A stretch of 64,000 bases of DNA from Rhodanobacter sp. C03. Its GTDB lineage: Bacteria; Pseudomonadota; Gammaproteobacteria; Xanthomonadales; Rhodanobacteraceae. The DNA lies in assembly GCF_002001175.1 (NCBI RefSeq), contig NZ_MUNT01000001.1, positions 1,054,001 to 1,118,000 on the forward strand, given 5' to 3'. A program made the translations under genes and the position numbers. The notes below the pieces were generated by a model. That model did not search any database. It had not been told where the DNA came from and saw only the letters and a program-made list of their open reading frames with translations. Below, in pieces: positions 41,766 to 59,482 of this stretch; position 1 is the stretch's first letter; each line of letters opens with the position of its first letter.

Positions 41766-41842
41766 CGGGGCGTAGCGCAGCCTGGTAGCGCATCTGCCTG
41801 GGGGGCAGAGGGTCGTCGGTTCAAATCCGGCCGCCCCGACCA
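41766..41842 (+). tRNA. tRNA-Pro (anticodon GGG), CCA encoded
   Basis: A 77-base cloverleaf: acceptor CGGGGCG / CGCCCCG, D arm with AGCGCAGCCTGGTAGCGC, anticodon stem TCTGC / GCAGA around CTGGGGG (anticodon GGG at 41,800-41,802), T arm with GGTTCAAATCC and an encoded ACCA end. It reads Pro CCC and CCU codons. It is the likely integration site (attB/attL) of the downstream island. Confidence 0.97.
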
Positions 41843-41851
41843 ATTCGCAAG

Positions 41852-41963
41852 TTAGACATCACAGTCACGGTGTCTAAGCTATTGATCTTGATGCACGTAG
41901 CGTTCGCGTCCATGACGCCTTTCCCAAACGCTACGTCTCTTTGCTACGTCGCACTGCTACGTC
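41852..41963 (+). repeat. Phased direct repeats and inverted copies between tRNA-Pro and integrase
   Basis: GCTACGTC occurs three times at 41,930, 41,943 and 41,956, exactly 13 bp apart. ACGTAGCGTT (41,895-41,904) is the perfect inverse of AACGCTACGT (41,927-41,936). A further 7-bp palindrome, TTAGACA / TGTCTAA, lies at 41,852-41,877. Their place between the tRNA end and the int start codon suggests integrase arm-type sites or sites for a directionality or regulatory factor. Confidence 0.7.
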
Positions 41964-41990
41964 AGGGTCTTTTCAACCGACGGAGAGTGT

Positions 41991-43862
41991 ATGCGAGCAG
42001 AACCCAACCTTATTTTGCGAGGCTCCAAGTGGAGTCTGCGTCTTGCTGTGCCCAAGCGCTTGCGGGAGCTTCGGGCCCAGATGGGCATTACCGAGCAGCG
42101 GGAGATCTGGCAAGCGCTGGGCACCAGCGATCGTCACGAAGCGCTGCGACGCGTAAGCGAGACCAAGGCCAAGGTGCTGCGAGCCTTCGACGACGAGACA
42201 GCCCAGCTCACGGCCGCACTCAATCCACCCCCTCGCATTCCCCCGACCGAGTTCCAACTGCAGCAAGCTGCCTTCGCCTTCAAGGCTAAGGAGCAGGGCG
42301 AGCTCTATCGCGAACGGCTCCACTACTTGCCGACAGGGAAGCAGGTGCGGGAGGCTGCGGATCAGCGGTTCATTTTGGACAGCACCCCGCTGAGCCCATC
42401 GGAGACCGCCTGGGATCGCTTTTCCCAGCGGCTCGAACTCGAATCCATCATCGACAGCAAGCAGCGTCTGACCGAGCGGCGACATGCGCTGCGTGCCGAG
42501 CTGGCTGCACACCTGGGAGACCATGAGTTTGTTCTGGTGGACTGGGCGATTCAGCAGATTGCCGACCAGCACGGCTACTTGATCGAGCAAGACGACGCCA
42601 ACTACCGCGTTCTGGGCTCGCTCCTGATGCGGGCTTGGATTCAGGAGCTGGACTCGGCCGATTCTGTCTTCATGAATGTGGATCTTCCGGCATCGACCGC
42701 CAACCTGTTTCAGGCCGGTCAACTCGGGGGACAGCCTTCAGCGAATGACGGTGCGGCCCTTGTCACCAGCGACGCGGCTGAGTCAGAGCGCGACATACTC
42801 GTGTTGTTTGAGGACTATCTGTCCGACCAGAAAAAGTCGCTGTCGTCGTCGGGCGAGGCCGATATTCGACGGACTATGCAGCAGTTTGTCGAAGTCAGCG
42901 GGATAAGTGACGTTACCGCCTACCGCAAAGCCCATGCCACGGCCTACAAGAAGCGCATACAGCAGCTTCCACCCAATGCGGTGCGCGATTACCCCGGTAA
43001 GACGGTCGATCAGATCATCAAGTCGGTGCCTGCCGGCGCACCACGGCTGAAGCCGAAAACGATCAATGCCCGCCTTTCACAGCTTGCTGTCTTCGGCAAG
43101 TGGCTGGAAGACACCCGCGATGACGTGGTGGCGATCAATTTCACGACGGCGGCGCTCCCTGTGGCAGGGACGAGCGACAAGATGAAGGAATTCACTGACG
43201 AGGAAGTGAGCAAGATATTCCTCCACCCAACCTTCATCGGATGCGCGGGTGAACGCAATCAGTCCGAGCCTGGCGACTACCGTGTCCGTGATTTCCGATT
43301 CTGGCTGCCTTTGACGGCTGCCTACTCCGGGTGTCGGCTCAACGAGCTGACACAGCTCCAGATCAGTGACATTTTCGAGCGAGATGGCGTTCTGACGCTC
43401 AATGTCACTGACTCCGGTGATGGCCAGAGCTTAAAGAATCAGCAATCCAAGCGCCTGGTACCCGTGCATAGCGTCTTGCTTGAGCTCGGTTTCAAAGAGC
43501 GGTTGGATGCCGTCAAGGCCGCCGGGAAAGAGCACTTCTTCCACGACATCCCCGTTGACCGAGGTGGTCGGCGATCGGAGGCGGCCGGAAAGCGCTTCCG
43601 AAAGTATCTCACTCGAATTGGTGTCAAACGGAAAGGGGTGGGGCAACGTGGTGGCATTCACCGGTTCCGGCACACTGTGATCGAAAAACTGAGGTCATAT
43701 GGCCTCTTCGATCATCAGATCGCTCCGTTCGTGGGTCATCAGGCTTCCCTCGCTCCGATGACCAGCGGTTACGGATCTTCGAGCGAGATGACCTTGGCGC
43801 AGCGCAAGGAAGCCATTGAGCTGATTCGCTACGATGGACTGGATCTCGGGCTGCTCAAGTAG
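41991..43862 (+). CDS. Tyrosine recombinase / phage-type integrase
   Basis: A 623-residue site-specific integrase. The N-terminus (LILRGSKWSLRLAVPKRLREL) resembles the DUF6538 arm-binding region. A long helical middle and a SAM-like core-binding domain follow at about 265-385. The catalytic domain shows R449 (AYSGCRLNEL), H557-x-x-R560 (IHRFRHTV), H583 (VGHQ) and the nucleophile Y594 (TSGYGSSS), so it looks intact. The ATG at 41991 follows CGGAGAG. Located 148 bp from tRNA-Pro, it should drive integration of the island there. Confidence 0.93.
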   Translation: MRAEPNLILRGSKWSLRLAVPKRLRELRAQMGITEQREIWQALGTSDRHEALRRVSETKAKVLRAFDDETAQLTAALNPPPRIPPTEFQLQQAAFAFKAKEQGELYRERLHYLPTGKQVREAADQRFILDSTPLSPSETAWDRFSQRLELESIIDSKQRLTERRHALRAELAAHLGDHEFVLVDWAIQQIADQHGYLIEQDDANYRVLGSLLMRAWIQELDSADSVFMNVDLPASTANLFQAGQLGGQPSANDGAALVTSDAAESERDILVLFEDYLSDQKKSLSSSGEADIRRTMQQFVEVSGISDVTAYRKAHATAYKKRIQQLPPNAVRDYPGKTVDQIIKSVPAGAPRLKPKTINARLSQLAVFGKWLEDTRDDVVAINFTTAALPVAGTSDKMKEFTDEEVSKIFLHPTFIGCAGERNQSEPGDYRVRDFRFWLPLTAAYSGCRLNELTQLQISDIFERDGVLTLNVTDSGDGQSLKNQQSKRLVPVHSVLLELGFKERLDAVKAAGKEHFFHDIPVDRGGRRSEAAGKRFRKYLTRIGVKRKGVGQRGGIHRFRHTVIEKLRSYGLFDHQIAPFVGHQASLAPMTSGYGSSSEMTLAQRKEAIELIRYDGLDLGLLK

Positions 43863-44047
43863 CCGAGTCGGCTTTCACTGACAGGATCTGCGGCGTTGCG
43901 CTGATTCACGCGGATCCTTTCCCTGTTGATGATGGAATCGCCCCGCTAGTCCGGCCCGAGCCGACGGACGTCAGGCCGTGCCGACGTCGCAAAGAGTCAG
44001 GTGGAACCGACGAACCGGGGCAAACGTCTCCCAACGGCGCAAATCCA

Positions 44048-44251
44048 ATGTCCGCGACTTTTGCCATCAAAGAAGACAGCGCTGGGCTCTGGCGCATCTG
44101 TCGTGGCCAGCTTGACTTCGCTAGCCGCCTGCGGCTGGAGCAGGCGATCAAGCAAGCGAATCAGCTTTCCCGCGACGAGCAATGTGCCACGGGCGAGAAT
44201 GCCGTAGTCGAGATGCACGGGCCAGACTTCGCCATCACGTTGACTCGGTAG
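44048..44251 (+). CDS. Small DUF2188-like protein, 67 residues
   Basis: The pattern (AIKEDSAGLWRICRGQLDFASR, then LEQAIKQANQLSRDE and VVEMHGPDFAITL) recalls the DUF2188 layout of a Trp strand, a helix rich in Ala and a final HGxD strand. The match is by eye. There is no strong ribosome-binding site. It lies in the island between the integrase and the restriction enzyme; the role is unknown. The 185 bp before it hold nothing recognised. Confidence 0.5.
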   Translation: MSATFAIKEDSAGLWRICRGQLDFASRLRLEQAIKQANQLSRDEQCATGENAVVEMHGPDFAITLTR

Positions 44252-44279
44252 CCAACCCGTTACTGGGCCATCGGTCCGG

Positions 44280-44645
44280 CTATTCGCTGGGATCTTCCTT
44301 ACCAGGGTCGTGCACAGCCTGCGTTCTCACCGCATGGGCGAGCTTGATGATCAGGTCGAGGTCCTGATCCTGCAGATCGGCGATGCACACGGAATCGCCG
44401 GTCGACCATGCCCAGACCGAAAACGCGTCAGCACGATACTTGTCGACGTGGTTGACGGTGATCCTTGAGGCCGCCTGTTCGCTGTGCGCATCACTGCCAT
44501 CTGCGCAAATCGAGACATCCTTGTTTTCGGGATCGAGGCAGGCAATCACCACGGCCGAACCGATATTCCTCAATAGATCGTCACGATCGCCTCGCCAGTC
44601 TCGCAGTTGGTCTTCGGACACTGAAATCAGATGATAGACAGACAT
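44280..44645 (-). CDS. Hypothetical protein, 121 residues
   Basis: A soluble acidic protein starting MSVYHLISVSEDQLRDWRGD. The ATG at 44645 has GAGGT four bases upstream. No signal peptide, membrane segment or known motif is visible. It is the only minus-strand gene in the island and converges with the DUF2188-like gene, ending 28 bp from it. Its promoter would lie in the 253-bp gap before the restriction enzyme gene, in which I see no other gene. Confidence 0.6.
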   Translation of the reverse strand: MSVYHLISVSEDQLRDWRGDRDDLLRNIGSAVVIACLDPENKDVSICADGSDAHSEQAASRITVNHVDKYRADAFSVWAWSTGDSVCIADLQDQDLDLIIKLAHAVRTQAVHDPGKEDPSE

Positions 44646-44898
44646 GTGCACCTCGCGTTCAAGAGTGATTGAATGCTCAATGCTAGAGACGTCGCGAGCG
44701 TCTGTCGGGCTGGGAATTCAGGAAGTGCAGGGAGTGCTTTTCTGATCGCAAGGCAGGGCGTGACTGTTTCGATCCGGACTCAGCCTGCCTTCGGAGCCTT
44801 CGCTGCAACCATGACCATCGCATGCATGCCAAAATCGGCCTTGGACTACCTCCGGAGCTGGGGCAATGGCTGTGATGCACACCAGGACACGCGAATAG

Positions 44899-47800
44899 AT
44901 GAGCGCCCTTCAGGACTTGCTGAACACATACCGCGACGCAGCCGTTTCGGAACGCGAAAAGGGTACGTACTTTGAAGAGCTGATCTGCGTGTACCTGCGC
45001 AACGAAGCTACCTATCGCGACCTCTACAGCGACGTGTGGACGTATTCGGCCTGGGCCAAGCTGCAGGGGCTTGATAAGCGCGATACCGGCATCGACCTCG
45101 TCGCCAAGACCCAGGGCACCGGAGAGTTCCACGCGATCCAGTGCAAGCTCTACGCGGAAGACTATCGGCTGCAGAAGAAGGACATCGACAGCTTCTTCAC
45201 CGCGTCGGGCAAGAAGCCGTTCACGCACCGCATCATCGTCTGCAGCACCAATCATTGGAGCGAGCACGCCGAGGAGGCGCTGCGCGACCAACAACCGCCG
45301 GTTAGCAAGATCGACCTGCACGACCTGGAAACCAGCCAGATCGACTGGGCGAAGTACAAGCCAAAAGCCCCGGCAGTGCTGAAGCCGCAGAAGCAGCTAC
45401 GGCCGCACCAGCAGTCTGCCTTGGCCGCAGTCAGCGCGGGATTGGACATGGCGGATCGCGGCAAGCTGATCATGGCTTGTGGCACCGGCAAGACTTTCAC
45501 CTCGCTCAAGATTGCCGAGGAGCGGGCGGGCAAAGGCAAGCGCGTGCTGTTCTTGGTGCCCAGCCTCGCATTGCTATCGCAGACGCTGACCGAGTGGACA
45601 CAGGAGAGTGCCACGCCGCTGCACAACTTCGCCGTCTGTTCTGACTCGGACGTCGGCAAGAAGCGCAAAGCCGACGATGACAGCGTGCAGACGTTCACCC
45701 ACGAGCTGCGCTACCCGGCCACCACCGACGCCAAACGGCTCGCCACCGAAATGGCCAAGCGTCATGACGCCACGCACATGAGCGTGGTCTACGCCACCTA
45801 CCATTCCATCGACGTCATCAGTCAGGCGCAGAAGGTTCACGGCCTGCCCGCGTTCGACCTTATTGTTTGCGACGAGGCACACCGCACGACGGGAGCTACG
45901 TTCGAGGGTGACGACGAGAGTCACTTCGTCAAGGTGCACGACGCGGCCTTCATACAGGCGGCTCGGCGCCTCTACATGACCGCCACGCCCAGGATCTACG
46001 GCGAGAACGCCAAGGCAAGCGCGCAGAAGGACAACGTGGCGCTTTGCTCGATGGACGACGAGGCGCTGTTCGGCAAGCAGCTCTACGCGCTTACGTTCTC
46101 CGAGGCGGTCAAGCGTGGCCTGCTGGTGGACTACAAGGTGATTGTCCTGGCTGTAGAGGAATCCCATATCAACCGCCGCTTGCAAAAGCTTCTGGCCGGT
46201 GACGACAACGAGCTGAAGATGGACGACGCCGCTCGGATCGTGGGCTGCTGGAAGGCGCTGTCGAAGCAGGGGCTGACGAACGATCTGGGCGACGATCACC
46301 ATCCCATGCAGCGCGCGGTGGCGTTCTGCCAGGTCATCGAGGCGAAGAAAGGCGCCAAGTCGCGCAAGGTCGGCTCCAAGAACATTGCGCAGATGTTCCA
46401 GGCTGTAGTCGAGGAGTACCAGAAGGGCGCTGATACCGACGAAGAAATCGCCGCCACCCTTACCTGCGAAGCCGAGCATGTGGACGGCGGTATGAATGCC
46501 AGCGAGAAAGAGGAAAAGCTCGACTGGCTCAAGGCCGCGGCGCCAGAAAATACTTGCCGGGTACTCAGCAACGTCCGCTGCTTGTCCGAAGGTGTGGACG
46601 TGCCCGCGCTGGATGCCGTCCTGTTTCTTACCCCGCGCAACTCGCAGGTGGACGTGGTGCAGTCGGTGGGCCGCGTGATGCGCAACGCGCCGGGCAAGCG
46701 GCTTGGCTACATCGTGCTCCCAGTAGTTATCCCCGCCGGCGTGGAACCTCACGAGGCGCTCAACGACAGCAGCACCTACAAGGTGGTTTGGCAGGTGTTG
46801 CAGGCACTGCGTTCGCACGACGACCGCTTTGACGCGATGGTCAATAAGCTCGATCTGATCGGCAAGGACACCAGCAAGATGGAAGTGGTGGCTGTCACCG
46901 ACAAAGTGCAACGTCGGGCCGCAAACCTGCGAACGAGCAAGTCACAGCAACAGGCCGGCAAAGCCCGTGGTGGCCATAGCATCGGGCGAACTTCCCCCGA
47001 CGAGCGACCACCAGAGCAGGTGGCCATGGAGTTCGAGATCGGGGAGATCGAGCGCGCCATCTACGCCAGGCTGGTGCAGAAGGTCGGCAATCGCCATCAC
47101 TGGGAAGACTGGGCCAAAGACATTGCTACGATTGCGAACACGCACATAGATCGGATCAAGGCGATTTTGGAGAACCCTGAGAACACGCGTGAGCGCAAGG
47201 CGTTCGGCGACTTCTCTGCCGAGCTGCGCGACGATCTCAACGACGCGATCACCGACGCGGAGATCGTGGAGATGCTTGCCCAGCACCTCGTTACCAAGCC
47301 GGTTTTCGAGGCGTTGTTCAAGCAATACAGCTTTGCCAAGCACAACCCGATGTCGCTCGCCATGCAGGATGTGCTTGATGCACTGAGCGAACACAACCTG
47401 GACAAAGAGGCCGACACCCTTCAGGCCTTCTACGACAGCGTGAAGCTGCGCGCTGAGGGCATCGACAGCGCCGAGGGCAAGCAGAAGATCATCAAGGAGC
47501 TATACGACAAGTTCTTCAACGGGGCGTTCCCGGAGTTGTCCAAGCGCTTAGGAATTGTGTATACGCCGGTGGAGGTGGTGGACTTCATCGTCCAAAGCGT
47601 CGAGCACATTCTGAAAGCCGAGTTTGCCGAGTCGTTGGGTAGCAAGAGCGTCCACATCCTCGACCCGTTCACCGGAACCGGCACCTTCGTCACACGCCTA
47701 ATGCAGAGCGGCCTGATCAGCCCCGAACAGCTCCGGCAAAAATACAAACACGAAATCCATGCTAATGAGCTCGTGCTGCTGGCGTACTACATCGCCGCCA

Positions 47801-49827
47801 TCAACATAGAGTCGACTTACCACGACATTGTGGGCGGCGATTACGTGCCGTTCGAGGGCATCTGCCTCACCGACACTTTCCAGATGTACGAAAAGGACGA
47901 CCTGATCGACGCGCTGCTGGTGGACAACAGCGCCCGGCGCAAGCGGCAGAAGCTGTTGGACATCCGAGTCATCATTGGCAATCCACCATATTCGATTGGG
48001 CAGGGCAGCGCGAACGACAACAACCAGAATCTTGCCTACCCGCACTTGGATCGACGTATCGCGGAAACCTACGCCGTCCGTTCTTCAATGACGTCTGTTA
48101 AGAACATTTACGACAGCTACATCCGAGCGATCCGGTGGGCCAGCGACCGAGTGCAAGACTGCGGCGTGATCGGCTTTGTCACAAACGCTGGTTTCTTGGA
48201 TTCCACTTCTTCTGACGGCCTTCGCCAGTGCCTAACAGAGGAGTTCAGCAGCATCTATGTATTCCATTTGCGTGGAAATCAGCGCACGGCCGGCGAGCTA
48301 TCGCGCAAGGAAGGCGGAAAGATTTTCGGCAGCGGCAGCCGCGCTCCGATCGCTATTTCCTTGCTGGTTAAGAATCCACACGCGCCCGAACACGGACGCA
48401 TCCTGTTCCACGACATTGGCGATTACCTCAGCCGCGAGGACAAGCTGGAGAAGATACGAACCTACGGCAGCATCGCTGGCATCACCAATACCAACGGTTG
48501 GTCAGCCATAGCCCCCGATCTTCATGGTGACTGGCTCAGGCAGCGTGATCGAGGCTTCAGTGCCTTCATCGCTCTGGGCGACAAAAAGAGCGATGGCGTG
48601 AAGCTGTTCGACAATTTCTCCCTGGGTGTGGCTACCGGACGTGATGCTTGGTGTTACAACGCTAGCCAAATCGTCGTCTCGGATAACATGGCTCGAATGA
48701 TCTCGTTCTACAACAGTGAGGTGGCGCGATTCGACACAGCCAACTTAGGGTTGGACAAGAAAGGACGCGAGGCTAAAGTAGAAGGCTTCGTCGACACGGA
48801 TCCAGCGCAGATCAGTTGGACACGATCTCTCAAGAATGAACTTGTGAAAGATCGCACCTTCACCTTTGATGCCTCCTGCCTGATATCGAGCTTGTATCGC
48901 CCCTTCGCCAAGCAATGGATGTATTTCAACCGGCGCTTCAATGAGATGGTGTACCAGATGTCACGCATCTTCCCAGATGCCGAGTTGGGTAATCGAGCCA
49001 TCATGGTCAAAGGCAATTGGCGCGGAGATGGTCAGTTTGCCCTTATGGTTGATACCGTAACGTGCTTGCAGCCTGATGGAGGCGGTCAATGCTTTTCGCT
49101 CTACCTTTACGACGAACCTGCACCGGCTGAATCGCGCGCAAATCAATCAGGCCTATTCAAGGCGGAAGGCGTCACGCCTGTTACGCGGACCCGTCGTGAC
49201 GCGATCACCGACGCTGGTCTCGCACAATTCCGGTCCGCATATTCGGGTGAGGCTCTCGCCAAAGAGGACTTGTTTTACTACGTTTATGGTCTGCTGCACT
49301 CGTCCGACTATCGTGAACGATACGCCGACAATCTCGGCAAGGAACTGCCTCGCATCCCTTGCGTGAAGAAAGTGGCCGACTTCTGGGCGTTTTCCCAAGC
49401 CGGTCGCGCGCTGTCAGAGCTACACCTGAACTACGAAAGCGTGCCGATGTACGCAGGAGTGAAAATTGATACTGGCGGCAAGAAGCTGGCCGATGCCGAC
49501 TACCTTGTGAAAAAAATGAAGGTTCCCAAGATCGGCAACGAGCAAGATCGCGCGACGTTGATCTATAACAGCAAGATCACAGTTACGAATATCCCCCCAG
49601 AAGCCTACGACTACGTGGTCAACGGAAAGCCCGCGCTTGACTGGGTGGTGGAGCGCCAGTGTGTGAAGACTGACAAGGCGAGCGGCATCGTCAACGACGC
49701 CAACGACTGGGCCATCGACACCATGCACAACCCCCGCTACCCGCTAGAGCTGTTCTTGCGCGTGATCACTGTGAGCCTAGAGACGATGAAGATAGTGAAC
49801 GCGCTGCCCAAGCTGGAGATCATGTAA
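44899..49827 (+). CDS. Type ISP restriction-modification enzyme (nuclease-helicase-methylase in one chain)
   Basis: A 1642-residue single-chain R-M enzyme. An Mrr/PD-(D/E)xK-type nuclease lies at about 20-130 (D66, Q81-x-K83 in DTGIDLVAK and IQCKLY). An SF2 translocase follows: Walker A ACGTGKT 193-199, DEAH 325-328, TATPR 361-365 and QSVGRVMR 588-595. A helical coupler occupies about 700-880. The adenine methylase has motif I DPFTGTGTF 922-930 and NPPY 1028-1031, then a target-recognition region to the end. This order matches LlaGI/LlaBIII, which methylate one strand and cut after convergent translocation. All key motifs look intact. The target site cannot be predicted. Confidence 0.93.
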   Translation: MSALQDLLNTYRDAAVSEREKGTYFEELICVYLRNEATYRDLYSDVWTYSAWAKLQGLDKRDTGIDLVAKTQGTGEFHAIQCKLYAEDYRLQKKDIDSFFTASGKKPFTHRIIVCSTNHWSEHAEEALRDQQPPVSKIDLHDLETSQIDWAKYKPKAPAVLKPQKQLRPHQQSALAAVSAGLDMADRGKLIMACGTGKTFTSLKIAEERAGKGKRVLFLVPSLALLSQTLTEWTQESATPLHNFAVCSDSDVGKKRKADDDSVQTFTHELRYPATTDAKRLATEMAKRHDATHMSVVYATYHSIDVISQAQKVHGLPAFDLIVCDEAHRTTGATFEGDDESHFVKVHDAAFIQAARRLYMTATPRIYGENAKASAQKDNVALCSMDDEALFGKQLYALTFSEAVKRGLLVDYKVIVLAVEESHINRRLQKLLAGDDNELKMDDAARIVGCWKALSKQGLTNDLGDDHHPMQRAVAFCQVIEAKKGAKSRKVGSKNIAQMFQAVVEEYQKGADTDEEIAATLTCEAEHVDGGMNASEKEEKLDWLKAAAPENTCRVLSNVRCLSEGVDVPALDAVLFLTPRNSQVDVVQSVGRVMRNAPGKRLGYIVLPVVIPAGVEPHEALNDSSTYKVVWQVLQALRSHDDRFDAMVNKLDLIGKDTSKMEVVAVTDKVQRRAANLRTSKSQQQAGKARGGHSIGRTSPDERPPEQVAMEFEIGEIERAIYARLVQKVGNRHHWEDWAKDIATIANTHIDRIKAILENPENTRERKAFGDFSAELRDDLNDAITDAEIVEMLAQHLVTKPVFEALFKQYSFAKHNPMSLAMQDVLDALSEHNLDKEADTLQAFYDSVKLRAEGIDSAEGKQKIIKELYDKFFNGAFPELSKRLGIVYTPVEVVDFIVQSVEHILKAEFAESLGSKSVHILDPFTGTGTFVTRLMQSGLISPEQLRQKYKHEIHANELVLLAYYIAAINIESTYHDIVGGDYVPFEGICLTDTFQMYEKDDLIDALLVDNSARRKRQKLLDIRVIIGNPPYSIGQGSANDNNQNLAYPHLDRRIAETYAVRSSMTSVKNIYDSYIRAIRWASDRVQDCGVIGFVTNAGFLDSTSSDGLRQCLTEEFSSIYVFHLRGNQRTAGELSRKEGGKIFGSGSRAPIAISLLVKNPHAPEHGRILFHDIGDYLSREDKLEKIRTYGSIAGITNTNGWSAIAPDLHGDWLRQRDRGFSAFIALGDKKSDGVKLFDNFSLGVATGRDAWCYNASQIVVSDNMARMISFYNSEVARFDTANLGLDKKGREAKVEGFVDTDPAQISWTRSLKNELVKDRTFTFDASCLISSLYRPFAKQWMYFNRRFNEMVYQMSRIFPDAELGNRAIMVKGNWRGDGQFALMVDTVTCLQPDGGGQCFSLYLYDEPAPAESRANQSGLFKAEGVTPVTRTRRDAITDAGLAQFRSAYSGEALAKEDLFYYVYGLLHSSDYRERYADNLGKELPRIPCVKKVADFWAFSQAGRALSELHLNYESVPMYAGVKIDTGGKKLADADYLVKKMKVPKIGNEQDRATLIYNSKITVTNIPPEAYDYVVNGKPALDWVVERQCVKTDKASGIVNDANDWAIDTMHNPRYPLELFLRVITVSLETMKIVNALPKLEIM

Positions 49828-49829
49828 GG

Positions 49830-50231
49830 ATGGATGTGCAGAAAGGCTTGATCATTAGGCAACCATGGATCGACCTGATTCTGTCCGGCGAGAAGACATG
49901 GGAAATGCGCTCCAACCGCGCGTCGCACCGGGGATCGTTTGGCTTGATCTTGAGGGGCTCAAAGACCGTGATCGGTGTTGCCGATCTAGTGAAAGTTCAC
50001 GGGCCACTTACCGTAGAACAACTGGAGCAGTCGTTCGTTCGCCATCGCGCCTCACTGTCTGTGCTCAATAACGCCGGGGGGAAACCATGGTCCTGTGCGT
50101 GGGAACTGGCAAACGTGCGGCGGCTTCCACGCCCGGTGCCATACGCGCACAAGAGCGAGGTTAGGTGGGTCGAATTTTCCGCCGCAGTTGTTGAAGAGAT
50201 CCAGACGCAACTGTCTACGCTCTATGCTTAG
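49830..50231 (+). CDS. ASCH domain (PUA-like) protein
   Basis: A 133-residue protein beginning GLIIRQPWIDLILSGEKTWEMRS, the hallmark of the ASCH fold, followed by a beta-barrel pattern (GSFGLILRGSKTVIGVADLV) and WELANVRRLPRPVPY. ASCH proteins bind RNA or modified bases; the E. coli member YqfB is an N4-acetylcytidine amidohydrolase. Here it starts 2 bp after the restriction enzyme stop, so it is almost surely co-translated. It may recognise modified nucleotides related to defence; that is inference. Confidence 0.85.
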   Translation: MDVQKGLIIRQPWIDLILSGEKTWEMRSNRASHRGSFGLILRGSKTVIGVADLVKVHGPLTVEQLEQSFVRHRASLSVLNNAGGKPWSCAWELANVRRLPRPVPYAHKSEVRWVEFSAAVVEEIQTQLSTLYA

Positions 50232-50257
50232 CGACGTCATATCAAGCAGGTAATGAC

Positions 50258-51241
50258 ATGTGCTACTCGGCGCAAATCTGGGCGGACTTCAGAAAATACG
50301 AGCGCTTTGGCGGAAAGCTCGCCATTAAGGAATTCACGAAGCTCGCGGGCTGGACGAAGAAGAAGGGCAACTGGGTAAAGGTTGTTCCGAAGGCGATGCG
50401 GCGCGCGATGATTGACGCCACGAGTGGCGTGTTGGACATGGAAACGGTCGAGATCGCGCGCGAAGCGGAATCGGAGGCAATCGCCTTGATCGCGTCTGAG
50501 ATCGGCGTCCAGGAAGCTCGGCTCGTCGAAGCGAACGCCAAGCTGGCATCAAGCAAGCCGACCAAGAAGGCTGAGACCGATCGCCGCGTCGCGACGAACA
50601 AGATTGAGGCTGGAAAGAAGAAGCTGGAACTCTTAGCCTTACCAGCGGCGGCCGATGGCATCGACAGAATCTGGCCCGGTCACTTCGCTCCGGTAATGAT
50701 TCGTGATGCTGAAACCGGCGAGCGTATGGTCGTCCCGATGCGCTACCGCTGCCGTCTGCCGGGGTGGACAGAAGCCGATGAGATCGAGAAGCCAGGCACA
50801 TATAACGCACGGCGCGACAAGCTTTCGACCGTATGGCGCAAAGTATTCGGCCACAACCACGGGATCATGATCGTGGATCGGTTCTACGAAAGTGTCTATC
50901 TCCACAATCTGCAGCAACGACCGCTGGTACCAGGCGAGCGCGAGCAGAGCGTTGAAATTCTCTTCTCGCCGTCGACCGGGGAAAACCTCTTCGTGGCTTG
51001 TCTATGGACCTATGTTGAGGCCGCCGGTGATGATCCAGGGTTCTACACGTTCGCCGCGATTACCGATGACCCGCCCTTTGAGGTTGTCGAGGCCGGCCAT
51101 GACCGGTGTCCTGTTCCAATTCAGGAAGAGGACATCGACGCATGGCTCGATCCAAACCCTGATGACTACGCGCCCTTGTATGCGATCCTCGACCGACGTG
51201 TGCGCCCGTACTACGAACATCAACTTGTGCAGCAGAAGTAG
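50258..51241 (+). CDS. SRAP-family (HMCES/YedK-like) protein with an internal insertion
   Basis: A 327-residue protein. The invariant Cys2 (MCYSAQ), N183 in GTYNARRDK, E211 in VDRFYES and H281 in GHDRCPV match the active-site set of SRAP proteins, which link covalently to abasic sites in single-stranded DNA. Unlike YedK, about 110 residues rich in Lys, Ala and Glu (about 20-135) separate Cys2 from the core, and probably form a helical hairpin. It lies 26 bp after the ASCH gene. A role in protecting DNA damaged by restriction or by modified phage DNA is inference. Confidence 0.85.
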   Translation: MCYSAQIWADFRKYERFGGKLAIKEFTKLAGWTKKKGNWVKVVPKAMRRAMIDATSGVLDMETVEIAREAESEAIALIASEIGVQEARLVEANAKLASSKPTKKAETDRRVATNKIEAGKKKLELLALPAAADGIDRIWPGHFAPVMIRDAETGERMVVPMRYRCRLPGWTEADEIEKPGTYNARRDKLSTVWRKVFGHNHGIMIVDRFYESVYLHNLQQRPLVPGEREQSVEILFSPSTGENLFVACLWTYVEAAGDDPGFYTFAAITDDPPFEVVEAGHDRCPVPIQEEDIDAWLDPNPDDYAPLYAILDRRVRPYYEHQLVQQK

Positions 51242-51517
51242 CCTTGATTCTTCCGATCGCAACAACTTTAAGCTGACTGCGCGCACCGATGCAGTTGATC
51301 ATTAGATCCGACCGATCATGATCAGCGCATCGGCATCCTTGCCAGCGAAGGCCACCGGCCGGAATCGGCCAACTGCGGTCAGTCACAGCCTCAACCAAGT
51401 TGCCGCAAAGCTGACGTTTAATATGCAAGCGGCGACGCCCCACCCATCCAACAGGGTTCGTACGAAACACGATTGGCTAACCTCAGTCCGATCCCCTATT
51501 TCCGCACGCATGAGGCG
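51242..51517. other. 276-bp gap between SRAP gene and histidine kinase gene
   Basis: The genes on either side converge. Short inversions such as GATCATgatc near 51,315 are present. I looked for a copy of the tRNA-Pro 3' end that would mark the right end of the island and found none. No ORF is supported. Confidence 0.4.
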
Positions 51518-52840
51518 CTAGTCGGCAGAAGGCAGTTGCAGGCGCGGGAACGCCATCGTCATGGTAGTGCCGACGCCGGACGTGGACTCGACGTCCACGA
51601 AACCGCCGGCCTGGCGCACCACGCCGTAGACCTGGGCCAGGCCCAGGCCGGTGCCGCTGCCTTCGGGCTTCGTGGTGAAGTAGGGTTCGAACAACCGCTC
51701 GCGCACGCTCTCGTCCATGCCGCTGCCGTTGTCGATCACAGCCAGGGTCACGTAGTCGCCAGCCGGTCGCAGCGTGCTGCCGTGCTCCGCGGTCACCGTC
51801 AACCCACCAAGCCGCACAGTGATCACACCCTGCCCACCGCAGGCATCACGGGCGTTGATGCACAGGTTAATGAAGGCCTGCTCGATCGCATGACGGTCGC
51901 ACATGGTCGACAGTGCGGTGGCGGCACGCTCGATCTGGAAATCCATACCGGCGCCGAGGCTGTGCCGCGCGAAATTCTCGATGTCACCTACGATGCCGAC
52001 CAGCTCGACCGGCTCGGGCGTGTAGCGATGCACGCGAGCGAATGCCAGCAGGCGCTGCGCCAGCCGCGCGGCATGGTGCACGCCGTCCATCGAATAGCCC
52101 AGCAAGCGGCGCTGACTATCGGTGAGGTTGGTCGGATCGTCCTGGATGCTGCTGAGCGCGACCACGGCAATCTGCAGCATGTTGGAGAAGTCATGCGATA
52201 GGCCAGCCACCAGTTGACCGATGGCCTCGTTCTTCTGCGATTGTTGCGCAGCGTGCTCTGCGACCGCTTGGGCCGCGCTGGCCAGGCCAAGCTGAAGCTT
52301 CAGCGACTGCTCACGGCCCGCGCCCTGCTGATGTGAAACCCGTGCGCGCGCCAACTGGTCATCCAGCCTCTGGTTGCGAACCGTGCTGACGGCGCGAGCG
52401 GATTCGCTGAGACTGAGTCTGCTGGCCAGGCCGACGATCGCCGTGTCCAGCGCCAGCTTCGCTTCGACCGCTTCAGTGATGTCGTGACAGATCACAGCCA
52501 TGCCATCGACCTGATGGGTCGCATCCACATACGGGTGAACGCTGATCAGCCACCAGCCCGGCTCGCCGCTGGCCGATGGCAGCACCTGGGTGAACTGCAT
52601 GGATCGGCCGGTGCGCGCGGTGGCCAGAGATGCTTCGAGCACGTCACGGGCCGCTTCCGGCCAAAACGTGGCCAGCGGTTGGCTGAGCGCGGCAGCCGGA
52701 TCGGCGATGCACAACACGGCGCAGCCGCTGGCATTGATGCGGGTAATATGACCGCGCAAGTCGAGTTCGTGGACGCCGTCCGCCGAAAAGGCGAGCAATT
52801 GCCGGTAGCGCTCAAGATCGTTCATTTGTGCACTCGTCAT
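51518..52840 (-). CDS. PAS-domain sensor histidine kinase
   Basis: A 440-residue cytoplasmic kinase with no membrane segment. The PAS domain spans about 8-125 (LLAFSADGVHELDLRGHITRINASG, VICHDITEAVEAK). A coiled coil lies at about 140-205. The phospho-acceptor is H216 in VAGLSHDFSNMLQ. The ATPase domain has the N box EQAFINLCINARDA, DNGSGMDE, LFEPYFTTKPEGSGTGLGLAQVYG and GTTMTMAFP. The overall type resembles PAS kinases such as FixL/NtrB-like soluble sensors. It is divergent from a receiver-only regulator, its likely partner. The signal is unknown. Confidence 0.9.
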   Translation of the reverse strand: MTSAQMNDLERYRQLLAFSADGVHELDLRGHITRINASGCAVLCIADPAAALSQPLATFWPEAARDVLEASLATARTGRSMQFTQVLPSASGEPGWWLISVHPYVDATHQVDGMAVICHDITEAVEAKLALDTAIVGLASRLSLSESARAVSTVRNQRLDDQLARARVSHQQGAGREQSLKLQLGLASAAQAVAEHAAQQSQKNEAIGQLVAGLSHDFSNMLQIAVVALSSIQDDPTNLTDSQRRLLGYSMDGVHHAARLAQRLLAFARVHRYTPEPVELVGIVGDIENFARHSLGAGMDFQIERAATALSTMCDRHAIEQAFINLCINARDACGGQGVITVRLGGLTVTAEHGSTLRPAGDYVTLAVIDNGSGMDESVRERLFEPYFTTKPEGSGTGLGLAQVYGVVRQAGGFVDVESTSGVGTTMTMAFPRLQLPSAD

Positions 52841-52927: not shown

Positions 52928-53305
52928 ATGACTTTTACCCGGACCAGAACCATTCTGCTAGCCGAAGATGACCGCAGTGCCCGTGAAGTCACGGCGCTGG
53001 TGTTAGAGGCCGCAGGCTACAAGGTGATCACGACCGGCAATGGCACCATCGCACTGGATATCCTGCAGAACGACGCCACCGTCGACCTGTTGCTGAGCGA
53101 CATCCAGATGCCTGGTGGTATCGATGGCATCGAACTCGCTAGGCGCGTGCAGATGAAGCGGCAGATGCCGATCGTGCTCACTTCGGCGGATCCACGCAGC
53201 AGCTTCGTGTGGTTTCCCGACAACGTGGCCTTTCTGCCTAAACCCTACGATCGCCGCGCGCTGCTTGCCGCTGTGACGGGGCTGTCATGGCCGGCTGCGG
53301 CCTGA
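52928..53305 (+). CDS. Single-domain response regulator (CheY-like)
   Basis: A 125-residue receiver with acidic pocket ED at residues 13-14, phospho-acceptor D58 (LLLSDIQMPGG), T85 and K105 (FLPKPYDR). No output domain follows, so it must act by protein contact or as a phosphate sink. It is divergent from the PAS kinase with an 87-bp shared promoter region. The 244 bp after it, up to the qNor gene end, hold no recognised feature. Confidence 0.9.
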   Translation: MTFTRTRTILLAEDDRSAREVTALVLEAAGYKVITTGNGTIALDILQNDATVDLLLSDIQMPGGIDGIELARRVQMKRQMPIVLTSADPRSSFVWFPDNVAFLPKPYDRRALLAAVTGLSWPAAA

Positions 53306-53549: not shown

Positions 53550-55862
53550 TCAGCGACCGGTCCGCACTTCGGCACGCATCCCGAGCCAGCCCTTGAAAGT
53601 GGCAATCACCAGCGGGGTCGCACCGAAGATGATGAACACCGCATCGCCCGGCATGCGCATCCATTCGAGGATGCGCGTGCGTTCCATGTCCAGGTAGGCG
53701 AAGCTACGCGCGTGCCAGTAGCCGTGCTCGATCACGTCCAGCAATTGCAGCACGCCGTTGGGAAACAGGCTGAATACGATCATCATCGCCAGCCCGATAT
53801 TGGTACCCCAAAACGAGCATCTGACGTACTTCTCGATGCCGGGCCAGTTCTCTTCGGTCGCGGTCTGTCGCAGCACGAACACCATCAGCGCGATCGCCAG
53901 CATGCCGAACACGCCCATCATCGCGGCGTGCGCGTGGTTGGGCGTCAACAGAGTGCCAGTTTCGTAGTAGCTGACGATCGGCAGGTTGATCAGGAACCCG
54001 AACATGCCGGCGCCGACGAAGTTCCAAAAGCCCACAGCCATTAGGAAATAGAACGTCCACTTGTGCGGTACGAGGCGCTCGATACCGTCAACATCCACCT
54101 TGTTTCTGGTAGTCCTGACGAAGTCCCACGCATCCAGCGTCAGCAAGGTCAACGGGACCACCTCCAAGACCGAGAACATCGCCGACATTGCCATATTGAA
54201 CGTGTTGTGGCCCTCGAAATACCAATGGTGACCAGTGCCAATCAGGCCACCCAGGAAATACAGGATCGCGTCAAGATAGATCACCCGCAACGCGATGTTG
54301 CGATGGGCCAGGCCCAGTTGGTAGAGGATTAGCGCGACCACGGTGGTGGCGAAGAACTCAAAGAAACCTTCGACCCACAGATGGATGATCCAGAATCGCC
54401 AGGTCTCCACCACGGTAAGGTTGGTCGACGCGCCGTAGAACAGCGCCGGGATGTAAAACACCGGGATCGCCAGCGCCGCCCACAGGAACATTCGTGCGAT
54501 CGGGCGCGCGTTGATATTGGCGACCTTGCTCGGCCGCGCCACCCAATACAGCAGCGCAAACCACACCAGCAGACCGAGCACCAGCAGGTACTGCCAGAAG
54601 CGGCCGATTTCCAGGTATTCCCAGCCCTGGTCGCCGAACCAGTACCACCATTTACCTAACAGGTTAGACATGCCCGCCCATTCACCGAGCATGCTCAGTG
54701 CGATCACCGCTACGAAGGCGCCAAACAGCAGGTGTGTCCACATCGCTAGTCCACGCGGCTCGTCATCCCGCTGGCGCAGCGTGCGCCCGAGGAACAGCGC
54801 CGCGGCGACATACGAGGTGGCGATCCAGAAGATGGCGCTTTGCAGATGCCAAGTGCGCATCAGATTGCTGGGGAAAATATCTTCGAGCTGGAAGCCGTAG
54901 AAGCCCTTAGGCTCGGCGCGGTAATGGCCTAGCGCGCCGCCCACCAAGGTCTGGAAGAGGAACAGCAACGCCACGACGACAAAGAACTTCAACAGCGCCC
55001 GCTGCCCCGCGCTGGCCTGACCCGGCAGAATACTGGGCGGCAGGCCGTGGCCGCGCGAAATCCAGCCGAGATAATCGAACTTGCCGAAGACCAGCAACAC
55101 CGTCGCGATGCCGGCCAGCAGCACCAGCAGGCTCAGCGCGCTCCACAGGTAGGCGCCGGCGATCGGTGTATTGCCGACCAGTGGTTCATACGGAAAATTG
55201 TTGGTGTAGGAATAACTGTAGCCCGGACGATCAGCGACCGAGGCCCAGGCGGCCCAGGTGACGAAGGCGCTGAACTCACGCAACTCTGTCGGATCGGAGA
55301 TTAAATCAGGCTTGAGGCCACCGTCGGTGGCAGGGTGCTGGAAGTAATCGGTCCAGTGTACGATCTGCTGATTCCAGGCCAGCGTTTCCGCAGGCGTGAG
55401 TTGCAACGTGTCGGTGCCGACGTTGTAGCGATTGGTTTTCAGCAGTACGCCGACTTGTCCGTAGATGCCGGCCTGTTGCTGGGGGTCGAGGTCGTCAACC
55501 GGCTTACCATACTGCTGGCGTGCCAGCACATCGGCTGTGTCCAGACCCATGTGGTGCAACGCTTCGGCTGAGTAGTCGGGACCAATGTAGGCCCCGTGGC
55601 CCCAGATCGAACCGTTGTCCATCAAGCCATATTTAAGGAACACGCCCTGGCCGGCGCTGATATCTGCGCCCGTGAACAACGTCTGGCCCTGTGCATCGAC
55701 GATCTTGCCGGGAATCGGCGGGGCGTTGCGATAGCCCATGACGGTCATGGCCACCAGCATGACAAAGCCGAATGCCATCACGATCAGGATCGAACGAATC
55801 CACCACGGAGACAGGGCTGAAACCTCCGGTTCGACCAGAGGTAGTGCTGCGTCATTCATCAT
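53550..55862 (-). CDS. norZ: Quinol-dependent nitric oxide reductase (qNor)
   Basis: A 770-residue single-chain NO reductase that reduces two NO to N2O with electrons from quinol. After an N-terminal membrane helix (about 22-42) comes a large periplasmic domain lacking the haem-c CxxCH, which identifies the quinol type. The catalytic unit of about 12 helices then has the haem and FeB ligands in regions such as LMRTWHLQSAIFW, WRFWIIHLWVEGFFEFF, GTGHHWYFEGH and TPNHAHAAMMGVFG. The ATG at 55862 follows GGGAGAA; the frame extends to 56090, but that part is not conserved. No norR, nsrR or dnr neighbour is present. Confidence 0.94.
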   Translation of the reverse strand: MMNDAALPLVEPEVSALSPWWIRSILIVMAFGFVMLVAMTVMGYRNAPPIPGKIVDAQGQTLFTGADISAGQGVFLKYGLMDNGSIWGHGAYIGPDYSAEALHHMGLDTADVLARQQYGKPVDDLDPQQQAGIYGQVGVLLKTNRYNVGTDTLQLTPAETLAWNQQIVHWTDYFQHPATDGGLKPDLISDPTELREFSAFVTWAAWASVADRPGYSYSYTNNFPYEPLVGNTPIAGAYLWSALSLLVLLAGIATVLLVFGKFDYLGWISRGHGLPPSILPGQASAGQRALLKFFVVVALLFLFQTLVGGALGHYRAEPKGFYGFQLEDIFPSNLMRTWHLQSAIFWIATSYVAAALFLGRTLRQRDDEPRGLAMWTHLLFGAFVAVIALSMLGEWAGMSNLLGKWWYWFGDQGWEYLEIGRFWQYLLVLGLLVWFALLYWVARPSKVANINARPIARMFLWAALAIPVFYIPALFYGASTNLTVVETWRFWIIHLWVEGFFEFFATTVVALILYQLGLAHRNIALRVIYLDAILYFLGGLIGTGHHWYFEGHNTFNMAMSAMFSVLEVVPLTLLTLDAWDFVRTTRNKVDVDGIERLVPHKWTFYFLMAVGFWNFVGAGMFGFLINLPIVSYYETGTLLTPNHAHAAMMGVFGMLAIALMVFVLRQTATEENWPGIEKYVRCSFWGTNIGLAMMIVFSLFPNGVLQLLDVIEHGYWHARSFAYLDMERTRILEWMRMPGDAVFIIFGATPLVIATFKGWLGMRAEVRTGR

Positions 55863-56410
55863 GGTTCTCCCGAACAGAGCGAAATGCTGCCATCGGGAAG
55901 GGCGTGCTGTCACGCCAGCAGTCGTTATGGGTTCCGATTCAACGTGTCGGATATCACCCTTTGGATGACGAAGTAGTGAAATTTGTCTTGAGGCCACGCG
56001 GCTGAATTGGACCTCTTCCCCGGATTTGAGTGGCAAGTAGCGGTCGATTCTGTTGATAAACTCAACTCGAAAAATTAGGCGAGAAAACAACGGACATGAG
56101 AACGCGATTTCGCGTCAATTTTGTTCACGAATGGCGTTTGATCGAACTCGCGTAGTCAAGCGCGCCCGCCTAAATTCGTGGTTTTTTTGGTTAACCTTGG
56201 GCGCTTACCGCGTTGTCGCCGAACTGCCCGAAAGCGGACGGTCGCCACCGGCAGGTTAGGGTCGGGTTCCGCCGGTCAACATCGGCTTGCAGCGGGCTAC
56301 AGTGGTAGGAGGCTGGTCACTGTCGATTGGTCGCGTAATGCATTAACCGCGATGCGCGCATCGGTGGCGCATTGTTCATGTAGGTGATCGACTGCGGTGC
56401 CCGCACTGAT
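55863..56410. other. 548-bp intergenic region with qNor promoter and a structured segment
   Basis: It lies upstream of the qNor gene and downstream of dnaE2, both on the minus strand. TTGATAAACTCAA at 56,053-56,065 resembles an FNR/Dnr dyad but has 3 rather than 4 central bases. On the plus strand 56,126-56,188 can fold as CACGAATGGCG / CGCC..ATTCGTG followed by T7, a terminator-like end that might belong to a small RNA. The region is visibly richer in A and T than the genes. No ORF is convincing. Confidence 0.5.
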
Positions 56411-59400
56411 TCAGTGAAAATCGCGCGACCGCACGTCTAGCCCACCGAGCAGCTCGCTCATGTCGAGCAAGCGACTGGCGATCAGATGACACACGCCATC
56501 GACCGCCTCCCAGCGTCCGTCGATTCCCAGCAGTTCTGATTCCAATAACACTCGCCTGTGGGTTTCGGCGACATCGCGCCATACGATGACGTTGACCATG
56601 CCGTGCTCGTCTTCCATGGTCAGGAACGTCACCCCGCTGGCCGTCTGGGGTCGCTGACGCATCGTGACAAGGCCAGCGACGCGCGCATAGCTGTTATGGG
56701 GCCGTCGGCGTAGCGTTCGTGAGTCGGTGCATCGGGCTGCGCGCAGCCGATCCCTGATCTGTGCCATGGGATGTACCCCCAGCGTCAGGCCGGTTCGTGC
56801 GTAATCCGCCAGCGTGTCCTCGGCCTGTGTCGGCTTCGGCAACACCACCGCGATCTCTGTCGGGCTGACGTTGCCGAAGAGCGGCAGCTGCTTTTCGACA
56901 CCGGCGATCTCCCAGTGCGCGTGATGACGATGCCGCGACAGACCCCGCAGTGCGCTAGCCTGCGCCAGCAAGTCCTGGTGATGCTTGTCCACGGCCGCTC
57001 GGGCGCAGAGATCCGCGATGTCGACGAACGGGCGTTGTGTTCGGGCTGCCATGATCCGGCGTGCAGCTTCTTCGCTGAACCCGCGCACCTGGCGCAGGCC
57101 GAGCCGGAGCGCGGGAGCTTCTTCATCCCGAGTAATGAGCGTGTTGTCCCAATCACTGCACTCCACGTCGATAGGGAAGACGTCGATGTCGTGTCGCCTG
57201 GCGTCTTGCACGATCTGGCTTGGTGCATAGAAGCCCATGGGCTGGCTGTTCAACAATGCACACGCGAAGGCCGCCGGCTCGTGGCACTTCAGCCAGCAGC
57301 TCGCATAGACGATGCCGGCGAAACTGGCTGCATGACTCATCGGAAAGCCATAGCTGCCGAAACCCTTGATCTGCTCGAATAGCTGCTCAGCAAAGGCGAC
57401 CGTGTAGCCCCGTTCGATCATGCCAGTGAGGAGGCGGTTCCGATGTTTCTCCAGGCCGCCATGCCGCTTCCATGCGGCCATGTCGCGTCTGAGCCCGTCG
57501 GCTTCGCCTGCGGTGTACCCGGCCGCGACCATGGCTAGCTGCATGGCCTGTTCCTGAAAAAGTGGAACGCCCAGCGTGCGCTCGAATACTTGCCTCAATT
57601 CCTCCGATGGGTAGTCGACGGGTTCCTCGCCCCTGCGCCGACGCAGATACGGATGCACCATGTCGCCCTGGATTGGGCCAGGCCGCACGATGGCGACTTG
57701 CACCACCAGATCGAAGAAGTTCTCAGGTCTGTGTCGCGGCAGCATGGCCATCTGCGCCCGCGATTCGATTTGGAAAACGCCGATCGTGTCCGCCCGCTGG
57801 ATCATCGCGTAGGTGTCGGGATCCTCCGAAGGCAGCGTGGCCATCGAGTAATCCTTCCCCCGCTGGTCGCGCAGCATGTTCAAGCACTTCTGCACGCAGG
57901 TGAGCATGCCCAAGGCCAGACAGTCGACCTTTAACAAGTTCATCGTGTCGAGATCATCCTTGTCCCACTGGATGATCGTGCGATCGGGCATCGCAGCGTT
58001 CTCCACCGGCACCAGTTCGCTCAGGGGTGCATCCGCGATAACGAAGCCGCCGACGTGCTGCGACAGGTGACGCGGCATGTCCAGGATCTCGGCCGTCAGC
58101 TTGATGATGCGCCGGATGACTGCGCTCTCAGGATCGAACCCACGCTCGCGCAACTGCTTCGTTAGTGACTCGTCGCCATTCCACCATGCAAACACCTGGC
58201 TCAACTGATCGACCTGGTCCAGCGGCAGCCCCATAGCCTTGGCAACGTCCCTCACGGCACTCTTGCCGCGGTAACAGATGACGGTCGCCGCCAGAGCGGC
58301 ACGCTCTCGACCGTATTTGCGATAGATGTATTGAATGACCTCTTCGCGGCGCTCGTGCTCGAAGTCGATGTCGATGTCTGGCGGCTCGTTGCGCTCCTTG
58401 GAGATGAACCGCTCGACCAGCAGGCTCATCTTCATCGGGTCGACTTCGGTCACACCGAGTGCGAAGCAAACTGACGAGTTCGCCGCGGACCCTCGGCCCT
58501 GACAGAGGATGCCCTGGCTTCGCGCGAAGCGCACGATGTCGTGCACGGTGAGGAAATAGGGCTCGTAGCGCAGTTCCTCGATCAATCCCAGTTCGTGCTC
58601 GATCTGTTTATGCACTTTCTCCGACACCCCTTCAGGCCAGCGCCAGCGCGCGCCTTCTTCCGTCAGCTGGCGCAACCAGCTGGTAGCGGTGTGGCCTTCC
58701 GGCACGAGCTCGGCCGGATAGCGATAACGCAGCTCATCGAGCGTGAAGGTGCATCGTGCGGCGATCCGCGCACTCTCGTCGAGCAAGGCCTCGGGGTAGA
58801 GCGTGGCGAGCACGTGTCGGCGCCGTAGGTGTCGCTCACCATTGCGTGCGATCAACCCTCCCGCCGCGGCGACTGGTACGCGGTGTCGGATCGCCGTGAG
58901 CGTGTGCTGCAAAGCCAGCCGCCGTCGGACGTGCATGTGCACGTCGCCCGCCGCTACCAGTGGCAGATCCAGCTCGCGGCCGATCGCTTCCAGTTCACGC
59001 ACGCGCCGTGCATCGTTCGGTCCGCGATGTAGCTCAACGGCCAGCCAGGCGCGATCGCCGAACGTCTGTCGTACCCAGCGACCATGAGCCATGTCGGCGA
59101 TCAGGTCAGGAGCCCACAGGACCAGCGTGCCTGGCAAGCCGGTGACCATGTCAGCGCACGTCAGGCGGTAGGTGCCTTTCTCCGATGCACGTCGACCCTG
59201 TGTGATCAGACTGCAGAGCGACGTGTAGCCTGTCTTCGTTTCGCACAACACGACGATCTTGGGACCATCGTCGAGCTGGATTTCCGAGCCGACGATCAAA
59301 GGCACGCCCGTTTGGCGTGAGGCTTCCAGCGCGCGGACGATACCGGCGAATGAGCACTCGTCCGTGATCGCCAGAGCGGAATAACCGCACGTCTTCGCCC

Positions 59401-59482
59401 GCTCGAACAGTTCGCGTGCACTGGATGCGCCGCGGCCGAAGGAGAAGTTCGACAGGCAGTGGAGCTCCGCGTAGGCCGTCAT
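56411..59482 (-). CDS. dnaE2: Error-prone DNA polymerase DnaE2 (ImuC)
   Basis: A 1023-residue C-family polymerase, the catalytic part of the SOS mutasome. PHP domain at the start ([26 protein letters not shown]), [24 protein letters not shown] core (with [10 protein letters not shown]), catalytic [32 protein letters not shown], and an OB fold at the C-terminus. A QLPLF motif near residue 865 resembles a beta-clamp-binding site. It differs from dnaE (10,089-13,643) in length and core sequence. The ATG at 59482 overlaps the imuB stop by 4 bp. Confidence 0.95.

Follow-up and report, generated by a model that had tools for sequence, protein, structure and literature searches.

A tRNA-Pro island of Rhodanobacter carrying SOS mutagenesis genes, an SRAP gene and a Type ISP restriction-modification enzyme

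The window analysed here, a 64-kb stretch of Rhodanobacter sp. C03 DNA, contains most of a 27.2-kb element inserted at a tRNA-Pro gene. The first third of this element carries genes for a Type ISP restriction-modification (R-M) enzyme (hereafter ISP), an ASCH protein and an SRAP protein. We consider it fairly probable that it is a mobile Rhodanobacter island in which two parts recur, namely an SOS unit, lexA-imuA-imuB-dnaE2 with mrfA-mrfB (56411 to approximately 65560), and a separate SRAP unit (approximately 50224-51371), and in which the surroundings of SRAP are variable and often anti-phage. What is new is a combination of known elements, in which an SOS mutagenesis unit, SRAP and exchangeable, often anti-phage cargo are brought together on a tRNA island. 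In place of a supposed three-part restriction system there is now a link, open to testing, between phage defence, induced mutagenesis and the capture of abasic sites, all on a single mobile element. In the open-licence literature (subscription papers lay outside the search) no paper naming both 'imuB' and 'Gabija' was found, and none among the matches listed joined SRAP terms with defence terms.

Extent and gene content of the island

The element spans approximately 41811-69043, its right end lying beyond the window. It is bounded by a 41-bp direct repeat of the tRNA-Pro end, the left copy at 41811-41851 and the right copy at 69003-69043, outside the window. The right copy was detected 27 kb from the left one by a search with the HU-MerR-tRNA-Pro stretch. 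The insert was absent from 12 of the 13 relatives whose tRNA-Pro sites were fetched. In seven of these 12 (G190, G228, G212, G191, G200, G197 and G207) both flanks of the empty site overlapped in or beside the 41-bp repeat, and in the remaining five the chromosomal backbone picked up at 69,943-69,945 after 92-630 bp. Since the repeat recurs and relatives possess empty sites, the element was taken to be 27.2 kb long. Judged from these sequence features (a recombinase beside a tRNA, a direct repeat of the tRNA end and an empty site in relatives), it is an integrative island that occupies the 3′ end of tRNA-Pro and has its recombinase on the tRNA side. A preliminary description of this DNA had proposed a tRNA-Pro defence island ending at 51241; an integrative island with defence genes was indeed found, but the repeat places its end at 69043. 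The intact tyrosine recombinase which that description reported after tRNA-Pro(GGG) was recovered as a protein of 623 amino acids (aa) with DUF6538 and Phage_integrase domains. One relative, G199, had another insertion of about 46 kb at the same tRNA-Pro (L146-L148, G199:C22:194400-248000).

Downstream of SRAP we found genes for a histidine kinase, a response regulator and a NorB-type reductase, followed by dnaE2, imuB, a presumed imuA, lexA, an mrfA-like helicase and an mrfB-like gene. The features are listed below with position, strand and basis; ORF denotes an open reading frame.

41766-41842, +, tRNA-Pro(GGG), integration site (tRNA call)
41811-41851, +, left copy of the 41-bp direct repeat (right copy at 69003-69043, empty sites)
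41991-43862, +, tyrosine recombinase, 623 aa (Pfam DUF6538 and Phage_integrase)
44280-44651, -, 123-aa ORF (no Pfam match; common to G200:C24)
44899-49827, +, Type ISP R-M enzyme, 1642 aa, cargo (Pfam domains, LlaBIII alignment)
49830-50231, +, ASCH protein, cargo (PF04266)
50258-51241, +, SRAP protein (PF02586)
51518-52840, -, histidine kinase, SRAP-dnaE2 slot (Pfam)
52928-53305, +, response regulator receiver protein, SRAP-dnaE2 slot (Pfam)
53550-56090, -, NorB-type nitric oxide reductase, SRAP-dnaE2 slot (Pfam)
56411-59491, -, dnaE2, error-prone polymerase (1495 bits)
59479-60882, -, imuB (IMS domain)
60895-61518, -, presumed imuA (place and recurrence; no Pfam match)
61518-62147, -, lexA (Pfam)
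62150-62169, no strand, LexA-box-like palindrome in the lexA/mrfA interval (sequence)
62202-64000, continuing to 64748 beyond the window, +, mrfA-like helicase (Pfam)
64745-65566, outside the window, after the mrfA-like helicase, mrfB-like gene (Pfam)

The SOS cassette, SRAP and the DNA between them

The SOS cassette was recognised as a lexA-imuB-dnaE2 run, dnaE2 scoring 1495 bits against a cut-off of 939 and both imuB and lexA exceeding their Pfam cut-offs. The imuA candidate, lacking a Pfam match, was named from its place and its recurrence in other loci. Beyond lexA lie a helicase with PF09369 (the MrfA Zn-binding domain) and then a gene with PF13482 (RNase_H_2 type), both over cut-offs, which by domain content match the MrfAB order of Zn-binding-domain helicase followed by exonuclease. 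A 20-bp LexA-box-like palindrome lies 2 bp before lexA, and similar candidate sites accompany other lexA copies. It occurs once in the window; elsewhere in the genome there were one exact copy (contig C1) and one site with two mismatches (C15). The same genome possesses a second copy of the SOS unit (L165, G000:C1:1-20000; dnaE2 93% and mrfA 96% identical) with the same LexA-like palindrome, and a dnaE2 fragment on contig C14.

The SRAP protein matched PF02586 with 64.8 bits (cut-off 27.1). C2, N183, E211 and H281 were invariant in 34 of 34 aligned SRAP sequences, which gives the protein the active-site Cys2, Asn, Glu and His whose roles are described in passages of PMC9436759; the Asn, Glu and His positions were assigned via an alignment with HMCES. 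Searched as a single sequence, the window SRAP had no solved-structure match, and its profile matched human HMCES marginally (E 0.0018). In SRAP of this type, as in the window protein (50258-51241), a long additional segment separates the N-terminus from the core, where the PF02586 match begins at residue 138. The type is common, accounting for 5516 of the 8000 candidates scored, and the close named relatives of the window SRAP are from Rhodanobacter.

In the genus sample of 45 genomes, dnaE2 or lexA lay no more than 10 kb away from 11 of the 18 near-full-length SRAP loci (29 rows less 11 that were short or weak). In the family sample of 197 genomes, Rhodanobacter being present in both samples, 12 of 62 SRAP loci had ImuB within 10 kb, where random placement would give 0.36, a comparison that treats loci as independent, which those of related genomes are not. 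The ImuB rows used were those of SRAP-bearing genomes among the matches listed, and a listed ImuB was present in 49 of the 51 SRAP genomes. Of the 11 dnaE2 copies with 92% or more identity to that of the window, eight also had SRAP within 10 kb. The arrangement differed between loci. In G188 the order was dnaE2-imuB-imuA-lexA and then, divergently, mrfA-mrfB-SRAP, the lexA-mrfA interval holding two LexA-box-like sites; in G205 and G225 SRAP and lexA were divergent, and a single such site lay between the two genes. Most SRAP loci near the cassette had neither ISP nor ASCH. According to passages of a paper published in 2013 (PMC3765255), SRAP genes stand in gene neighbourhoods with ImuA-ImuB-DnaE2 across bacteria.

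The DNA shared between loci had sharp edges. On the SRAP side, homology with all nine other SRAP loci started at 50,207-50,258, that is 0-51 bp before the ATG (at 50,223 or 50,224 in four), and ended between 51,153 and 51,381. The SOS block started exactly at the dnaE2 stop (56,411) in six of the eight loci reaching it; in the other two it started 48-55 bp farther out. It extended to 65,550-65,560, approximately the end of mrfB, in G200:C30, both G197 loci, G228, G188, G000:C1 and G390, and stopped near 62,300-62,423 in G199 and G200:C24. The G390 unit (L179), from another genus of the family, had 84% DNA identity over 9.2 kb. Its end lies some 20 bp from an SRAP gene that is convergent but distant in sequence (44%), which would fit a unit transferred without its own SRAP.

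Seven loci, the window included, had convergent dnaE2 and SRAP genes separated by 3,597-7,649 bp, and these intervals shared only stretches of 74-208 bp in a nucleotide comparison. The slot held the NorB gene and two-component pair in the window, Gabija proteins in G199 and G228, the PADLOC candidate PDC-S06 and a kinase in G200:C24, a Lamassu-like ATPase in G197:C2, an FRG-domain protein with unknowns in G197:C14 and two unknowns in G200:C30; the last two slots encode large proteins without a Pfam name. Gene calls in the relatives were made with a simple ORF script, which missed lexA and imuA of L123; these were covered by DNA homology. Pairwise distances of SRAP and dnaE2 were correlated over the seven loci (r 0.74, permutation p 0.003), and Mantel tests with eight or nine loci gave r 0.51 and 0.65. 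This correlation suggests joint travel of the flanks around a cargo that varies. The two G200 copies were not each other's nearest.

Proteins recognised by PADLOC adjoined SRAP in five of the seven convergent loci, or in four of six without the window, which was picked for its R-M gene and belongs outside any cargo test. The case set comprised 47 proteins matching 193 PADLOC families, of which the best 25 were considered; per-protein results for G197:C14 and for the 377-aa protein of G200:C30 lay outside it. In a small, hand-picked control of 16 other dnaE2 loci, unpaired with SRAP and not known to be mobile, each listed PADLOC family was matched by one of 78 proteins. The listed control families were the best 25 of 29, all of GajB, RTasHel or RTasPolA type, and at a guess housekeeping helicases and polymerases may explain these matches.

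Several further points, besides the relatedness of the family genomes, weigh against the proposed island. Ends were demonstrated for the tRNA-Pro element only, the other loci being candidate islands. Seven of the 18 genus loci and 50 of the 62 family loci of SRAP were not within 10 kb of the cassette, and the fetched DNA of three of the 11 close dnaE2 copies (G000:C1 and G218, both ending at contig ends, and G210:C2) held no SRAP. Neither the window slot nor the 570-aa protein of G200:C30 was assigned a defence family by PADLOC. Ahead of ISP and SRAP the window showed no LexA box. Direct LexA control of these two genes in the window was considered and rejected, the palindrome occurring only once, between lexA and mrfA.

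The Type ISP enzyme and its neighbours

A Pfam scan of the ISP protein gave the domain order Mrr_cat_2, ResIII/Helicase_C, ISP_coupler, N6_Mtase and Type_ISP_C, so that nuclease, SF2 ATPase, coupler, methyltransferase and specificity domains follow each other as in single-chain Type ISP enzymes, and residues 6-1641 aligned with LlaBIII. The preliminary description of a complete Type ISP enzyme is thus borne out. Its gaps of 2 bp (ISP-ASCH) and 26 bp (ASCH-SRAP), with all three genes on one strand, also agree with our coordinates. Strand and spacing allow one operon. No promoter-like or terminator-like match was found in the two gaps, but the scans found fewer sites than shuffled sequences did (1 against a mean of 2.5, and 3 against 6.5), and they mean little for this reason.

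The ASCH protein, whose ATG lies 2 bp past the ISP stop, matched PF04266 with 36.0 bits (cut-off 21.2) and the solved structures 1wk2 and 2dp9 (TTHA0113, named hypothetical in the PDB; E 2.4e-16); its predicted structure was confident, with a predicted local distance difference test (pLDDT) value of 88. This subfamily is rare. It was found in two of 185 class genomes and three of 197 family genomes, the window genome being counted in both, and in 32 proteins of a large database. Ten of the 30 matching plasmid rows were read for neighbours, and there the ASCH relatives had an MjaI restriction enzyme beside them twice and a helicase/ATPase/DUF1156 run once. Two longer chromosomal relatives had HNH and McrBC genes as neighbours. 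One of them, of 285 aa (L132 9242-10099), adjoins the HNH gene, and the other, of 271 aa (L133 9302-10117), is flanked by McrBC and EH_Signature/SNF2 genes. We take the latter genes to be Zorya-like. No such partner was annotated beside the ASCH relatives on Vibrio, Alteromonas and Photobacterium plasmids or in Vibrio phages, 20 records of which include an ASCH protein with 34-40% identity to that of the window. Passages of two papers name ASCH a modified-DNA-binding domain (PMC10853773, PMC11037411), and those of the second treat its role as a DNA base reader as a prediction, unproven for adenine methylation.

The claim that ISP, ASCH and SRAP form one system was put to a comparison of ISP neighbourhoods and found no support there. 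SRAP or the same ASCH subfamily was present in the flanks of none of the 76 ISP relatives in the named genomes scanned, some flanks ending at contig ends. The preliminary description had itself named such an outcome as one that would refute it. A Pfam-level ASCH search, covering the 50 of 76 loci with long flanks, gave four matches in the 50 genomes and none within the fetched ISP stretches. A full or nearly full ISP occurred in three of the 45 genus genomes, those of the window, G228 and G190, where it is split in two pieces. That of G228 (69%) precedes SRAP in the same orientation, separated from it by a gene for a 205-aa protein without a Pfam match, an arrangement that favours the proposed trio. 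The ISP of Rhodanobacter sp. C06 had neither an ASCH nor an SRAP partner; an 884-aa gene of SMC/AAA type lies 8 bp 3′ of it (L103 15195-17849). TIR-domain-like proteins, recognised by eye, were directly downstream of two ISP relatives (L057 5272-6039, L105 8266-9204). A constant small partner of ISP was also considered and rejected: 28 of the 76 loci had a same-strand ORF within 100 bp downstream, and only two pairs of these were similar.

Together the three genes recurred only as remnants, in one further island, G200:C24. The DNA ahead of its Type I R-M genes matched window positions 43,939-44,966, reaching 68 bp into ISP. The translation of this remnant, LQGNLNYYRQAEVFERENGT, scored 56 against ISP residues 4-23, compared with 32 for the best non-ISP site in 762 kb (the true ISP of G228 excepted). 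Directly before SRAP the same locus has an ending, QFQVQLTALYS*, that resembles the ASCH end. The ASCH remnant is the weaker of the two and is not significant by its local protein score, which 8 of 100 shuffles reach. Its recognition rests on 45 bases that are collinear and equally far from SRAP; it ranked first in 762 kb when searched with the ending of the ASCH relative P0005; with the window's own ending it tied with an unrelated site at 30 each. P0005 (74%) shares the terminal residues of the window ASCH, which are encoded where homology of the SRAP leader starts, and may share the ASCH/SRAP junction. Type I R-M genes and a reverse transcriptase lie between the two remnants. We suggest that the order ISP...ASCH-SRAP was probably once present in G200:C24 and that its middle was replaced. 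No other evidence speaks as well for an old ISP-ASCH-SRAP arrangement as these remnants do, and they speak just as well for an exchange of cargo beside SRAP. The order looks older than this genome, and the trio may be ancestral in this island lineage, which tells against our reading. A 785-bp stretch behind mrfB (65633-66392, outside the window), shared with G200:C24 (L169 7216-7999) at 83%, is further evidence of kinship between the two islands. The 123-aa ORF at 44280-44651 was common, among the loci compared, only to the window and L117 (17182-17547).

Competing explanations and known systems

In the proposed island, the recombinase would move the element, and LexA would repress lexA-imuAB-dnaE2, and probably mrfAB too, via the palindrome at 62,150. 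DNA damage would lift this repression, whereupon ImuA-ImuB-DnaE2 could perform mutagenic bypass and MrfAB could repair adducts. SRAP would cap abasic sites in single-stranded DNA via Cys2. ISP would be an autonomous R-M enzyme carried as cargo; according to the abstract of PMC4666363, single-chain Type ISP enzymes restrict and methylate alone. ASCH would be an accessory of this cargo, perhaps a modified-base binder. Since the ISP-ASCH cargo directly precedes SRAP, SRAP is here probably transcribed from it. A further step, which we put forward tentatively as a possibility, is that a mobile receptacle has lexA-imuA-imuB-dnaE2(-mrfAB) as one fixed end and SRAP as the other. Recombination in these conserved ends would swap anti-phage systems, so that defence would travel with the tolerance of DNA damage that is required to survive defence by nucleases. 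If so, G200:C24 would preserve the scars of such a swap, the ISP start and the probable ASCH end framing the Type I R-M genes and reverse transcriptase. If SOS genes and SRAP do frame a cargo slot, reading the slot would be a direct route to new defence genes.

The cooperating system of the preliminary description, in which ASCH would read modified bases and SRAP would capture abasic DNA arising from attack or repair, is very improbable in our view. The compact same-strand order in the window, ISP upstream of SRAP in G228, the paired remnants of G200:C24 and the junction perhaps shared by P0005 all speak for it. Against it stand the ISP relatives without SRAP or ASCH nearby, the many cassette-associated SRAP loci without ISP or ASCH, and the fact that DNA homology of SRAP ends at or just inside the ASCH end. 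In its neighbourhoods and its correlated divergence with dnaE2, SRAP tracks the SOS mutasome more than ISP. A two-gene cargo is a narrower alternative, with ASCH tuning restriction or detecting modified DNA and SRAP a bystander from the SOS module. The 2-bp spacing, the restriction-type neighbours of ASCH relatives and the naming of ASCH as a modified-DNA-binding domain agree with it. Nevertheless, an intact ISP with ASCH was seen at the window locus only, and the plasmid and phage relatives annotated without such a partner also count against it, and we regard it as quite unlikely. It also seems unlikely that SRAP, R-M and SOS genes are unrelated passengers of the same mobile regions with no working link. 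Such hitch-hiking would fit a cargo that differs in nearly every locus and the large share of family SRAP loci away from ImuB. It does not fit the SRAP-SOS neighbourhoods published across bacteria, nor the recurrent convergent orientation, the sharp edges and the correlated SRAP and dnaE2 divergence.

Defence islands and hotspots hold variable anti-phage systems between conserved genes. The island described here resembles them in its variable anti-phage systems, but its flanks are SOS repair genes that are themselves mobile. The ISP enzyme is like LlaGI and LlaBIII in its single-chain domain order and, for LlaBIII, in its long alignment, and differs in having ASCH and SRAP behind it and in its host group. 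The mrf-like genes correspond to the MrfA-MrfB mitomycin repair pair, as the abstract of PMC11194089 describes it, in that a helicase with the MrfA Zn-binding domain is followed by an RNase_H_2-type gene; unlike that pair, they are divergent from lexA across a LexA-box-like palindrome. SRAP stands beside lexA-imuA-imuB-dnaE2 as in the published neighbourhoods (PMC3765255); the abstract and available passages of that paper do not mention mobile islands in which variable cargo separates dnaE2 from an SRAP convergent with it. Mobile imuABC cassettes are known from plasmids, according to passages of PMC4151985, and these are likewise horizontally moved, LexA-controlled mutagenesis cassettes. The island differs from them in being integrated at a tRNA and in carrying SRAP, MrfAB-like genes and an R-M system.

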